NCBI GenBank assembly: GCA_017302655.1
Contig: JAFLDE010000040.1
Location: 1-35,421 of the forward strand
Direction: 5' to 3'
DNA length: 35,421 nt
DNA from: Burkholderiales bacterium
GTDB taxonomy: Bacteria > Pseudomonadota > Gammaproteobacteria > Burkholderiales > Burkholderiaceae_C
Made by a program: the position numbers and the translations under genes. This document shows, piece by piece, positions 15,539 to 18,374 of the stretch. The notes under the pieces were generated by a model that had not been told where the DNA came from, did not search any database, and worked only from the letters and a program-made list of their open reading frames with translations. The first letter of the stretch is position 1. The number at the start of each line of letters is the position of its first letter.

Positions 15539-15612
15539 GAGTGCTCCGGTTGAGTGGGCCCGGGATGGGGCCCGTCCACAACGTTCAGGCAGGGCTGCCG
15601 AGCACCGGCGCT

Positions 15613-15630
15613 TGCAAAGCATCTGCAAAG
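15613..15630. repeat. Short tandem direct repeat TGCAAAG-N4-TGCAAAG in the secreted-protein/tldD divergent gap
   Basis: Two identical TGCAAAG copies start at 15613 and 15624, 11 bp apart, one helical turn. This spacing is typical of OmpR-family response-regulator half-sites. No convincing sigma-70 promoter could be placed with it. The regulatory role is speculative. Confidence 0.3.
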
Positions 15631-15663
15631 ATTGGTGAAGAGGCGGGCGCGCACAATGCCGCC

Positions 15664-17121
15664 ATGAATGCTCCCGACTCCATGCTTGCCGCCCTCGGCG
15701 CGGCGCAGGCCCAGTTGCTCACCCCGTTTGGTCTCGATGAGGCGGCGCTGGCCCGGGCCCTGGCGTTGATCACCGCGCACAGAGTGGACGACGCCGATCT
15801 CTACTTCCAGACCACGCGCGCCGAAGGCTGGAGCCTGGAGGAAGGCATCGTCAAGAGCGGCAGCTTCAGCATCGACCAAGGCGTGGGCGTGCGCGCCGTG
15901 GTGGGCGAGAAGACGGCCTTCGCCTACTCCGATTCGCTCTCCGAATCGGCCCTGAACGACTGCGCCACCACCGTGCGCACCATCGCCGCGGCCGGGCAGA
16001 GCAAGCGCTTCCAGGTGCGCCCGCGCCGTGCCACGGGCCTGCAGCTCTATGGAGGTGACGACCCGATCGCCAGCCTGGGAAGCAGCGAGAAGGTGGCGCT
16101 GCTGGAGAAGGTGGAGAAACTCGCCCGCGCCAAGGACCCGGCCGTGGTCCAAGTGATGGCCGGTGTGGCCGCTGAGCACGAACTGGTGCTGATTGCCCGC
16201 GCCGACGGCCTGATGGCCGCGGACGTGCGCCCGCTGGTGCGCCTCTCCGTCACGGTCATTGCCGAGCGCAACGGCCGCCGCGAAGTGGGCTCCAGCGGCG
16301 GCGGCGGGCGTTTCGGCCTGGGCTATTTCAGCGACGAGCTGGTGCAGCGCTACGTGGACCAGGCGGTGAGTGCCGCGCTCACCAACCTGGACAGCCGCCC
16401 GGCGCCGGCCGGCGAGATGACGGTGGTGCTCGGCCCCGGCTGGCCGGGCGTGCTGCTGCACGAGGCCGTGGGCCATGGTCTGGAGGGCGACTTCAACCGC
16501 AAGGGCTCATCCACCTTCGCCGGCCGCCTGGGCCAGCGCGTGGCCGCGCCGGGCGTGACCGTGCTGGACGACGGCACCCTTCCCGACCGCCGCGGCAGCC
16601 TGAACATCGACGACGAGGGCCACGCCACTCAGCGCAACGTGCTCATCGAAGACGGCATCCTGGTCAACTACATCCAGGACGCGATGAACGCCCGCCTGAT
16701 GCGCCGCGCCGCCACCGGCAATGGCCGCCGCGAGAGCTACGCCCATGTGCCCATGCCGCGCATGACCAACACCTACATGCTGGCCGGCCAGCACGATCCG
16801 GCCGAGATCATCGCCAGCATCGACCGCGGCCTGTACGCCACCAATTTCGGCGGCGGCCAGGTGGACATCACCAGCGGCAAATTCGTCTTCAGCGCCAGCG
16901 AGGCCTGGTGGGTGGAGAAGGGCAAGCTGCTCTACCCGGTGAAGGGCGCCACCATCATCGGCAGCGGACCGGAGAGCCTGCAGCGCGTGAGCATGATCGG
17001 CCGCGACCTCGAACTGGACAGCGGCGTGGGCGTGTGCGGCAAGGAAGGGCAGAGCGTGCCCGTCGGTGTCGGGCAACCCACCCTTCGCATCGACGGTCTG
17101 ACGGTCGGCGGCACGGCCTGA
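15664..17121 (+). CDS. tldD: Metalloprotease TldD
   Basis: A 485-residue subunit of the TldD/TldE (PmbA) zinc protease, which degrades unfolded peptides and matures modified peptides. The HExxxH zinc motif is HEAVGH at residues 266-271, within GVLLHEAVGHGLEGDFNRKGSS. Other family segments are ADLYFQTTRAEGWSLEEGIVKSG, GVGVRAVVGEKTAFAYSDS, ILVNYIQDAMNARLMRRAATGNGRRE and the C-terminal GVGVCGKEGQSVPVGVGQPTLRI. The ATG at 15664 is the first in frame with family similarity, but no Shine-Dalgarno sequence is evident. tldE (pmbA) is not in the window. The gene ends 13 bp before the aroG leader peptide. Confidence 0.95.
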   Translation: MNAPDSMLAALGAAQAQLLTPFGLDEAALARALALITAHRVDDADLYFQTTRAEGWSLEEGIVKSGSFSIDQGVGVRAVVGEKTAFAYSDSLSESALNDCATTVRTIAAAGQSKRFQVRPRRATGLQLYGGDDPIASLGSSEKVALLEKVEKLARAKDPAVVQVMAGVAAEHELVLIARADGLMAADVRPLVRLSVTVIAERNGRREVGSSGGGGRFGLGYFSDELVQRYVDQAVSAALTNLDSRPAPAGEMTVVLGPGWPGVLLHEAVGHGLEGDFNRKGSSTFAGRLGQRVAAPGVTVLDDGTLPDRRGSLNIDDEGHATQRNVLIEDGILVNYIQDAMNARLMRRAATGNGRRESYAHVPMPRMTNTYMLAGQHDPAEIIASIDRGLYATNFGGGQVDITSGKFVFSASEAWWVEKGKLLYPVKGATIIGSGPESLQRVSMIGRDLELDSGVGVCGKEGQSVPVGVGQPTLRIDGLTVGGTA

Positions 17122-17127
17122 TACATT
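17098..17127 (+). promoter_or_regulatory. Possible sigma-70 promoter for the Phe leader and aroG
   Basis: CTGACG (17098-17103) resembles a -35 box, and TACATT (17122-17127) a -10 box, 18 bp apart. Each matches the consensus at four of six positions. Initiation would fall near 17134, so the leader peptide ATG at 17135 would be almost leaderless. Cotranscription from tldD is an alternative. Confidence 0.3.
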
Positions 17128-17134
17128 GCCCACC

Positions 17135-17197
17135 ATGTCCCGCGCCGTGTTTTTTCGCTTTTGGTTCTTTCCCCGCCCCGGCGGTGGAGAGTTCTAG
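17135..17197 (+). CDS. Phenylalanine-rich leader peptide of the aroG attenuator
   Basis: A 20-codon frame running from ATG at 17135 to TAG at 17195-17197. It encodes MSRAV, then FFRFWFF, then PRPGGGEF. Six of 20 residues are Phe, and five of these lie in seven consecutive codons (17150-17170), with one Trp codon between them. This is the composition of Phe attenuation leaders such as E. coli pheL. The stop codon lies 31 nt before a strong terminator, and the gene next downstream makes DAHP, the first step toward Phe. Ribosome stalling at the Phe codons would leave 17177-17185 free to form an antiterminator; completing the peptide would cover it. No Shine-Dalgarno sequence is visible. It is too short for routine gene callers. 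Confidence 0.82.
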   Translation: MSRAVFFRFWFFPRPGGGEF

Positions 17198-17260
17198 GCG
17201 CACGCGCTAGACCCTGAACTCCTCAAGACCGCCGGGCCCAACAGCCCGGCGGTTTTTTTT
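17177..17260 (+). promoter_or_regulatory. Transcription attenuator (antiterminator/terminator) controlling aroG
   Basis: Terminator: ACCGCCGGGC (17228-17237) pairs perfectly with GCCCGGCGGT (17244-17253) around the loop CCAACA, followed by eight T residues (17253-17260). Antiterminator: CCCGGCGGT (17177-17185), inside the leader peptide frame, is exactly complementary to ACCGCCGGG (17228-17236), the terminator's 5' arm. A nested helix GAGTTC (17189-17194)/GAACTC (17216-17221) brings the antiterminator arms together. The two structures exclude each other. A ribosome at the leader stop codon would mask the antiterminator arm and allow termination; one stalled on Phe codons would not. Confidence 0.85.
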
Positions 17261-17291
17261 CGCCTGCCTTCGCACCTTCAGAAAGACCGTG

Positions 17292-18374
17292 ATGAGCCCG
17301 CTCTACGCCCCCGACGACCGCACCAGCCGCACCGACGATCAACGCATCGCCGACGTCACCCCGCTGCCGCCACCCGAGCACCTGATCCGCTTCTTCCCGA
17401 TCAAGGGCACGCCGATGGAGAAGCTGGTGCTGGAGACGCGCAGCAGCATCCGCGACATCCTGGCAGGCAAGGACGAGCGGGTGCTGGTGATCGTCGGGCC
17501 GTGCTCGATCCACGACCCGAACGCAGCGATCGAGTACGCGCGCCGGCTCAAGCCCTTGCGCGACCAATACCGGGATCGCCTGGAGATCGTGATGCGCGTC
17601 TACTTCGAAAAGCCGCGCACCACGGTGGGCTGGAAGGGGCTGATCAACGACCCCTACCTGGACGAGAGCTTCCGCATCGACGAGGGCCTGCGCATCGCCC
17701 GCCAGCTGCTGCTGGAGATCAACCGCTTGGGCGTGCCAGCCGGCAGCGAGTTCCTGGACACCATCAGCCCGCAGTACATCGGCGACCTGATCGCCTGGGG
17801 GGCGATCGGCGCGCGTACCACGGAAAGCCAGGTGCACCGCGAGCTGAGCTCGGGCCTGTCGGCACCGATCGGCTTCAAGAACGGCACCGATGGCAACCTG
17901 AAGATTGCCGCCGACGCCATCCAGGCCGCCGCGCGCCCTCACCATTTCTTGTCCGTCCACAAGAACGGCCAGGTGGCCATCGTGCAGACCAAGGGCAACA
18001 AGGACTGCCACGTCATCCTGCGCGGCGGCAAGAGCCCCAACTACGACGAGACCAGCGTGGACGCCGCCTGCGACGAGTTGGCCGCCAACAAGCTGCCGCA
18101 GCGCCTGATGGTGGACTGCAGCCACGCCAACAGCAGCAAGCAGCACGAGCGCCAGCTGGTGGTGGCCGAAGAGCTGTGCCGGCAGTGGAAAGCGGGCCGC
18201 CGCAACGTGTTCGGCGTGATGGTCGAGAGCCACCTGATTGGCGGCGCGCAGAAGTTCAGCCCCGGCAAGGACGACCCGGCCAAGCTGGCCTACGGCCAGA
18301 GCATCACCGATGCCTGCATCGACTGGGCGCAGACCGAGCAGTTGCTGGCGATGCTGGCCGACGCCCAGCGCTGA
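17292..18374 (+). CDS. aroG: 3-deoxy-7-phosphoheptulonate (DAHP) synthase, class I AroG type
   Basis: A 360-residue enzyme that condenses phosphoenolpyruvate and erythrose 4-phosphate into DAHP, the first step of the shikimate pathway. Class I motifs are present: VLVIVGPCSIHDPNAAIEYA, MRVYFEKPRTTVGWKGLINDP, GVPAGSEFLDTISPQYIGDLIAWGAIGARTTESQVHRE, PIGFKNGTDGN, and the metal-site segments MVDCSHANSSK and GVMVESHLIGG. The ATG at 17292 gives MSPLYAPDD; a GTG directly upstream at 17289 is an alternative. Only a weak GAAAGA lies before it. The Phe-rich leader and terminator upstream indicate control by Phe-tRNA charging, and the enzyme would be expected to be the Phe-sensitive isozyme (inferred). 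The stop codon abuts the facing stop codon of the M3 peptidase gene with no spacer. Confidence 0.95.
   Translation: MSPLYAPDDRTSRTDDQRIADVTPLPPPEHLIRFFPIKGTPMEKLVLETRSSIRDILAGKDERVLVIVGPCSIHDPNAAIEYARRLKPLRDQYRDRLEIVMRVYFEKPRTTVGWKGLINDPYLDESFRIDEGLRIARQLLLEINRLGVPAGSEFLDTISPQYIGDLIAWGAIGARTTESQVHRELSSGLSAPIGFKNGTDGNLKIAADAIQAAARPHHFLSVHKNGQVAIVQTKGNKDCHVILRGGKSPNYDETSVDAACDELAANKLPQRLMVDCSHANSSKQHERQLVVAEELCRQWKAGRRNVFGVMVESHLIGGAQKFSPGKDDPAKLAYGQSITDACIDWAQTEQLLAMLADAQR

Follow-up and report, generated by a model that had tools for sequence, protein, structure and literature searches.

The window, which is the whole stretch of 35,421 nucleotides that was analysed, carries between tldD and a DAHP synthase gene a short reading frame rich in Phe codons, followed by a hairpin and a run of T residues. 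This raises the question of whether the arrangement controls the gene downstream. The first-pass annotation of the window had proposed a leader peptide and attenuator controlling aroG, and our analysis supports it: on the evidence of a conserved frame, conserved helices with compensatory changes and a conserved gene context, the element is very probably a ribosome-mediated transcription attenuator of aroG. The parts of the region are as follows, in coordinates of the window.

15541-17121: tldD, the upstream neighbour of the leader frame
17098-17103, + strand: putative weak -35-like hexamer CTGACG, matching four of six consensus bases, with an 18-nt spacer
17119-17127, + strand: extended -10-like box TGATACATT, the TGA of which is the tldD stop codon
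17135-17197, + strand: leader peptide frame MSRAVFFRFWFFPRPGGGEF and stop codon, probably leaderless, without a Shine-Dalgarno motif
17150-17170, + strand: control codons FFRFWFF (five Phe, one Trp), read directly
17167-17176, + strand: segment 1, 5' arm of the predicted 1:2 hairpin, the 3' arm lying within 17181-17191
17177-17194, + strand: segment 2, 5' arm of the antiterminator (CCCGGCGGT then GAGAGTTC), inside the leader frame
17216-17236, + strand: segment 3, 3' arm of the antiterminator (GAACTCCTC then ACCGCCGGG), the 3' part doubling as the 5' arm of the terminator
17228-17260, + strand: intrinsic terminator (segments 3:4), with a 10-bp stem, a 6-nt loop and a T run at 17253-17260
17289-18374, + strand: class I DAHP synthase gene ('aroG'), starting at GTG 17289 or ATG 17292

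Direct reading gives a leader frame with its ATG at 17135-17137, 20 codons and a TAG at 17195-17197. Six of the codons are Phe codons and five of these fall within codons 6-12, which confirms the first-pass annotation to the base. Its other structural observations also hold. The 10-bp terminator stem with eight T residues (17228-17260) consists of ACCGCCGGGC and GCCCGGCGGT around the loop CCAACA, and the first T of the T run pairs with A17228. Within the leader frame, CCCGGCGGT (17177-17185) is the exact 9-nt complement of ACCGCCGGG (17228-17236), the 5' arm of the terminator, and the nested helix that had been described as joining the antiterminator arms is present, GAGAGTTC pairing with GAACTCCTC with one bulge and closing the antiterminator. 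The next gene is indeed a DAHP synthase gene (TIGR00034 (aroFGH), 527 bits against a cut-off of 173; PF00793, 1.4e-92). It scores 523 with the narrower 'AroG' model NF006723, under the cut-off of 568, and 'aroG' is therefore used here as a name of convenience.

Chance is an unlikely source of the combination of aromatic frame and terminator. Among 20,000 copies of the 170-nt spacer between tldD and aroG simulated with a first-order Markov model, at least six aromatic codons in seven were seen 11 times and a 10-bp stem with seven T residues once, and frame and stem were never seen together. The antiterminator folds alone at -28.5 kcal/mol and the terminator stretch at -25.0 kcal/mol; the fold of a 136-nt stretch (-58.8 kcal/mol, z -4.78) was equalled in none of 200 shuffles. 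A simple promoter and terminator scan of 17040-17310 reported neither, and a likely reason that the terminator was missed is that the pairs of its stem run into the T run. No family for the 20-amino-acid peptide was found in NCBIfam and Pfam. The 22 matches of a permissive Rfam search (E up to 10) all fell short of the gathering score, and none was to a family named for an amino acid leader.

Scripts and inspection by eye identified a short aromatic-rich frame with a terminator behind it at 63 of the best 80 DAHP synthase loci (more exist), where the gene neighbour is present by construction. Examples are the leaders of Polaromonas (L023, MTSAKFYFAYFWFSSATGGREIFA), Caballeronia (L072, MSAKFYFYFFWHLKPLADREG), a member of the Oxalobacteraceae (L057, MTRFFFTTYFYFSDSNLEAVE) and Xanthomonas (L077, MNANRSFYFWYYGFPMPLAEEGVRSP). 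The leaders of L008 and L012 were assigned by eye. No leader was seen at 16 of the 80 loci (L021, L026, L030, L033, L035, L038, L046, L049, L050, L055, L058, L060, L069, L074, L075 and L081), one of which, L033, has its upstream stretch cut off. L068 was counted neither with the 63 nor with the 16, and L045 and L068, which the terminator pattern did not fit, were omitted from later leader comparisons, L045 being kept in the tree.

Some of these loci are individually unusual. L012 (Comamonadaceae; leader ATG at 1299) has a leader in which His codons are interspersed with the aromatic ones (MRTTVRYHFWHFHIQHLTGAGVANA) and segment 2 is degenerate, with the terminator kept. In L059 (Candidatus Burkholderia humilis) the frame, from 1311, appears to be shifted after FYFYF and runs through the terminator region, possibly the result of decay in that genome. 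L068, from a metagenome-assembled genome labelled Anaerolineae, has a different aromatic frame (MSRYFSFFSWYGYFAAGQ...) and a different GC-rich hairpin before its DAHP synthase gene, perhaps an independent attenuator. The DAHP synthases of L068 and of L046, L049 and L050 (genomes of the same kind labelled Planctomycetota, Gemmataceae and Verrucomicrobiia, respectively) are 62-69% identical to that of the window, through either transfer or mis-binning.

The leader is widespread in the order. A covariance model, R1, built from the window and 56 of the DAHP synthase loci, was run on 300 genomes of the order, including the window's own, and 111 of these had a match at E <= 0.001. There were 77 full-length matches at E <= 7e-6, one per genome and distributed over 14 families, and a DAHP synthase gene lies directly downstream of every one of the 77, some of which are near-copies of model members (L113, for example, shares its DAHP synthase with L027). 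The aromatic frame was recognised by script in 75 of the strong matches and the terminator pattern in 73, L145 and L169 being those of the 75 leaders that fall outside the pattern; one of the two matches lacking a script-recognised frame (L159) has a weak frame by eye, and the other is L166. The 13 weaker or partial matches that were examined had no DAHP synthase gene in the stretch covered. On 274 genomes of the class, R1 gave six matches at E <= 1e-5, of which three are from the window's family, two are from family f63, lie before aroG and group with Xanthomonas and Stenotrophomonas, and the sixth is partial and without aroG. Both large searches ran stricter filters, and 77 of 300 is therefore a lower bound.

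The pairing segments show compensatory changes among these relatives. Three of the 67 leaders examined (L012, L013 and L065) lack an exact GGCGG segment 2 and were left out of the segment-2, switch, arm-permutation and spacing counts; in the other 64 the GGCGG core is always in frame. At the base adjoining the core, segments 2:3:4 read C:G:C in 32 leaders, T:A:T in 14 and A:T:A in two, a three-way compensatory set in 48 of the 64, with a G-U pair in 2:3 in five and no standard 2:3 pair in 11. Across 57 sequences, 97.5% of the cells in terminator pairs are paired, the covariation was reached by none of 500 shuffles, and 22 cells, in three of the nine stem pairs, are changed on both sides against a shuffled mean of 4.7. 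In the antiterminator pairs, for which the alignment misplaces some rows, 79.0% of cells are paired, the covariation was again reached by none of 500 shuffles, and 16 cells are changed on both sides against 7.6 when shuffled. Only two 2:3 pairs have changes on both sides, a number not above that in shuffles (482/500), and neither the 2:3 nor the 3:4 helix has further pair types above shuffles.

In tests that, like the shuffles, ignore relatedness, the native arms beat 2000 of 2000 permutations for the outer 2:3, the inner 2:3 and the 3:4 helix. Within lineages, the native inner 2:3 pairing of the Burkholderiaceae (-5.3) is worse than that with arms of other lineages (-8.1), and the native outer 2:3 pairing of the Oxalobacteraceae gains almost nothing. 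L059, with its shifted frame, was left out of these permutations, the switch model and the spacing and codon count. The first-pass annotation had suggested a search for the frame and helices across relatives, and in our data the frame, the terminator and the alternative helix recur with compensatory changes in many families. Reading and comparing the sequences establishes the frame with its aromatic codons, the alternative helices and the covariation of these, and the gene context; we infer the start site, ribosome stalling, readthrough and the amino acids sensed.

How a ribosome on the leader might switch between the helices was modelled by masking the RNA to 12 nt past the first base of the A-site codon, a distance that follows from toeprints, with the remainder paired up to where segment 3 ends. 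As all upstream RNA is masked in the model, events after ribosome release are outside its reach. In the window, a stall at the aromatic codons F6 to F11 gives a 2:3 probability of 1.00, which is 0.68 at F12 and 0.00 from P13 onward. Each of the 63 leaders modelled has one or more aromatic stalls at which the probability of 2:3 exceeds 0.5, and none exceeds this value at the stop codon; a Trp stall favours 2:3 in 51 of 51. Not all aromatic stalls work in the model, since the first one considered does so in 55 of 63 leaders and the last in 58. The distance from the start of the last aromatic codon to segment 2 is 8-14 nt in 119 of 137 leaders, a count in which the automatic choice of segment 2 is clearly spurious for L111 and L122. 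This narrow spacing and the modelled stalls together suggest that the aromatic run ends approximately where the ribosome starts to cover segment 2.

These results suggest the following mechanism. Transcription would start at the leader ATG or at most two bases before it, and the leader would probably be translated from a leaderless mRNA. If charged tRNA-Phe (in relatives also that of Tyr and Trp) were short, the first ribosome would stall in codons 6-12, disrupting segment 1 and freeing segment 2, and the 2:3 antiterminator would form and allow RNA polymerase to read into aroG. If aromatic amino acids were plentiful, the ribosome would pass the run and cover segment 2, the 3:4 terminator would form and transcription would end at 17260. 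The 1:2 hairpin of the window would probably keep segment 2 off segment 3 before the ribosome arrives or after it departs.

The role of this hairpin is open to an alternative reading, namely an attenuator without any 1:2 hairpin, in which the switch consists solely in the ribosome directly masking segment 2 as it finishes the peptide. The first-pass annotation had taken this position, and it was about half right: the modelled switch indicates that its idea of direct masking is sound, and masking explains that switch, but a 1:2 hairpin is contained in the minimum-energy fold of the window (-14.4 kcal/mol alone) and its arms pair better than most permutations. In the modelled leaders that were inspected, once the aromatic run ends the 2:3 helix is lost within about one codon in most lineages and after a few more codons in the Oxalobacteraceae, as masking alone would have it. 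The 1:2 arms of the Burkholderiaceae pair less well with one another than with those of other lineages, and without a ribosome the antiterminator is favoured in 31 of 63 leaders (the value for the window is 0.49), so that untranslated RNA may read through. On the other side, permuted arms were as good in only 2 of 2000 cases for the whole arms and 49 of 2000 without the core. Covariation points both ways. The UUCUC-GAGAG pairing of 1:2 is found in 84.9% of cells (as high in 2 of 500 shuffles) with a covariation of 0.287 (18 of 500), while a control slid by two columns gives 0.276 and has 15 cells changed on both sides against nine. We therefore treat an attenuator without the hairpin as a serious possibility, though one that we hold to be somewhat doubtful; on the models the 1:2 hairpin would be a helper of uneven strength across relatives.

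The start of the leader also differs from those of the DAHP synthase genes. None of 67 leaders has a Shine-Dalgarno-like motif within 18 nt before the ATG, against 43 of 51 DAHP synthase starts in a more lenient count that allowed any candidate start (8 of 59 loci gave no start). In 44 of the 67, a hexamer resembling a -10 box stands 6-8 nt ahead of the leader ATG, often with TG in front; it is TACATT in 32, one of TACAGT, TAGAGT, TATATT, TAAATT or TAAAGT in 10, and TATCAA in two, from Xanthomonas and Stenotrophomonas. L087, whose leader repeats that of L002, was left out of these counts. With the usual spacing, such a box would set the transcription start at the ATG or no more than two bases upstream. 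Because there is no Shine-Dalgarno motif and a -10-like box stands near the ATG, the leader is probably translated from a leaderless mRNA, a feature on which the first-pass annotation is silent. In the window the tldD stop codon TGA doubles as the TGn of the extended -10-like box, and the -35 and -10 elements match only 8 of 12 consensus bases, under the promoter scan's threshold of 9. The leaders of the Burkholderiaceae and Oxalobacteraceae have no such -10 box, but an AT-rich box further upstream (by eye), and for this reason they probably have a short 5' stretch. In the available part of the source, the attenuator RNA of S. meliloti trpL (rnTrpL) is likewise described as beginning with the ATG of the leader frame and as leaderless (PMC7298713); the likeness is to a 5' end that is reported there and predicted here, and the S. 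meliloti leader differs in being a Trp leader, of trpE(G).

As the S. meliloti attenuator RNA that starts with the leader ATG is described in that same part as acting in trans (PMC7298713), the terminated leaderless RNA of about 125 nt, or its peptide, could by analogy also act in trans, like rnTrpL and peTrpL. Relatives differ in the frame and length of the C-terminal part of the peptide, which speaks against the peptide having a conserved function, and we judge such an activity improbable.

The codons of the leader bear on which amino acids would be sensed, and here the family departs from the window. Phe is present in all 137 leaders compared, Tyr in 130 and Trp in 86, nearly all of them leaders that had been picked for their aromatic run. 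The window's is one of only seven leaders without Tyr and keeps one Trp; its relatives within the genus, L085 and L086, have Tyr at codon 6 where the window has Phe. The family is therefore not one of Phe codons only, a correction to the first-pass annotation. In 59 loci, TTT accounts for 170 of the 258 Phe codons of the leaders, compared with 64 of the 448 in their DAHP synthase genes. When close leaders are compared in pairs, which are non-independent, synonymous changes make up 471 of the 1462 codon differences in the aromatic run (32%, with 13% expected). The identity of the amino acid sensed we infer from such sequence features.

This pattern also bears on the reading of the element as a ligand-binding riboswitch (for Phe, for example) or a protein-bound leader with the peptide as a by-product. 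The RNA of segment 2 (GGCGG then GAGAGG) is kept across different reading frames, as such a leader might require, but the excess of synonymous changes in the aromatic run and its narrow spacing from segment 2 speak against it, and outside the run and the arms the alignment is variable, with no conserved compact aptamer apparent. The loop between segments 2 and 3 varies from 38 to 59 nt among relatives, and neither the window nor any of 20 of the best 80 loci had a match reaching gathering score among the 4227 families of Rfam release 15. We consider this reading very improbable. That the hairpin, a good intrinsic terminator directly behind tldD, simply ends the tldD transcript and that the Phe-rich frame is incidental is scarcely credible and was rejected, since in L085 and L086 the element is retained although what lies upstream differs (by eye), all 77 strong R1 matches precede a DAHP synthase gene, and relatives conserve both the aromatic frame and a second segment complementary to the terminator arm.

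A ribosome-mediated attenuator of aroG has relatives among known systems. E. coli pheL-pheA and pheST each combine a Phe-rich leader peptide and an antiterminator that competes with a terminator, before a biosynthetic or a tRNA-charging gene. The element described here resembles them in the Phe-rich leader peptide, the alternative antiterminator and terminator and the biosynthetic gene downstream. It differs from them in that the gene is the entry to the shikimate pathway, the family has mixed aromatic codons, the core of segment 2 is wholly inside the leader frame and there is no Shine-Dalgarno motif. The pheL-pheA and pheST attenuators are both named in the part of PMC11802643 that was available. 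The gene context recurs in C. glutamicum aroR-aroF, in which, according to the passages available, a leader peptide with Phe-Tyr-Phe attenuates a DAHP synthase gene (PMC11802643, PMC4046766; Neshat et al. 2014) and transcription rises under Phe limitation and is unaffected by the availability of Tyr. As in our element, an aromatic leader peptide precedes a DAHP synthase gene; by these descriptions, the aromatic run is longer in our element than in aroR of this Actinobacterium and in relatives often includes Trp. In Acholeplasma, the uORFC-13-1 motif before aroF is a proposed attenuator of DAHP synthase (PMC8632094), similarly a candidate short Phe frame before an apparent terminator and a DAHP synthase gene, and the same excerpt cites an earlier attenuation hypothesis for E. 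coli aroF. As described there, uORFC-13-1 differs in having a ribosome-binding site and at least one Phe codon and is known from 24 sequences, of Acholeplasma and environmental origin.

Attenuation of aroG had first been regarded as unusual; on what these excerpts contain, C. glutamicum provides a precedent and Acholeplasma a proposal, and leader-peptide attenuation of a DAHP synthase gene is, as a kind, already known. The accompanying remark that its author knew of no description for this lineage agrees with our search, in so far as no aroG attenuator of Betaproteobacteria or Xanthomonas was found in the available text of the open-licence papers listed, a set that lies apart from the classic attenuator surveys (Vitreschak et al. 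2004, Panina et al. 2001, Merino and Yanofsky 2005). The portions available of PMC2965389 and PMC5343134 mention no betaproteobacterial aroG attenuator, and those of PMC1262725 and PMC3890552 concern Actinobacteria. As far as we have searched, what is new is a widespread leader family with mixed aromatic codons and a probable leaderless start. For a large bacterial group it offers a concrete and conserved way of controlling the enzyme with which the shikimate pathway begins. Its natural variants (Phe-rich, Phe-Tyr-Trp and one with His codons) form a series in which to ask which uncharged tRNA is sensed, and its apparent leaderless start raises the question of how initiation is timed relative to RNA polymerase in attenuation.

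The distribution of the leader over DAHP synthase copies may reflect its history. In each of six genomes of the window's genus the leader stands before one DAHP synthase gene; a leader at the second gene was looked for by eye in the 250 nt upstream and was seen in none of the six. Of 26 genomes chosen from the two R1 searches, 13 carry two class I copies and the other 13 a single copy, and in all 26 an R1 match lies before exactly one copy, the one most like that of the window, although a second leader that has diverged might escape R1. A quick tree of 166 DAHP synthases (without L033, L055, L068 and L166) places the genes that carry a leader in two subfamilies that are well apart; the second copy in the window's genus, which has no leader, sits with leader-bearing genes from other families. 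Such a pattern is consistent with an old leader retained by one copy per genome; transfer of the leader between DAHP synthase copies is an alternative history. We speculate, with a confidence that falls a little short of even, that the element is an ancient, leaderless, pan-aromatic attenuator of Betaproteobacteria as well as of Xanthomonas and related bacteria, sited at the entry step of aromatic biosynthesis and attached to one DAHP synthase gene per genome whatever its subfamily, in which a single leader would integrate the charging of tRNA-Phe, tRNA-Tyr and often tRNA-Trp, and which lineages would retune by codon swaps; the leader of the window, for instance, lacks Tyr codons, of which its genus relatives carry at least one.

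Two further arrangements were observed. In Polynucleobacter (L021, L026 and L030) aroG lies close behind the upstream gene with no leader seen, and the gene groups with leader-bearing relatives, an apparent loss of the leader. At G255:C1:3050130-3052290, two class I DAHP synthase genes stand in tandem behind a single leader match.
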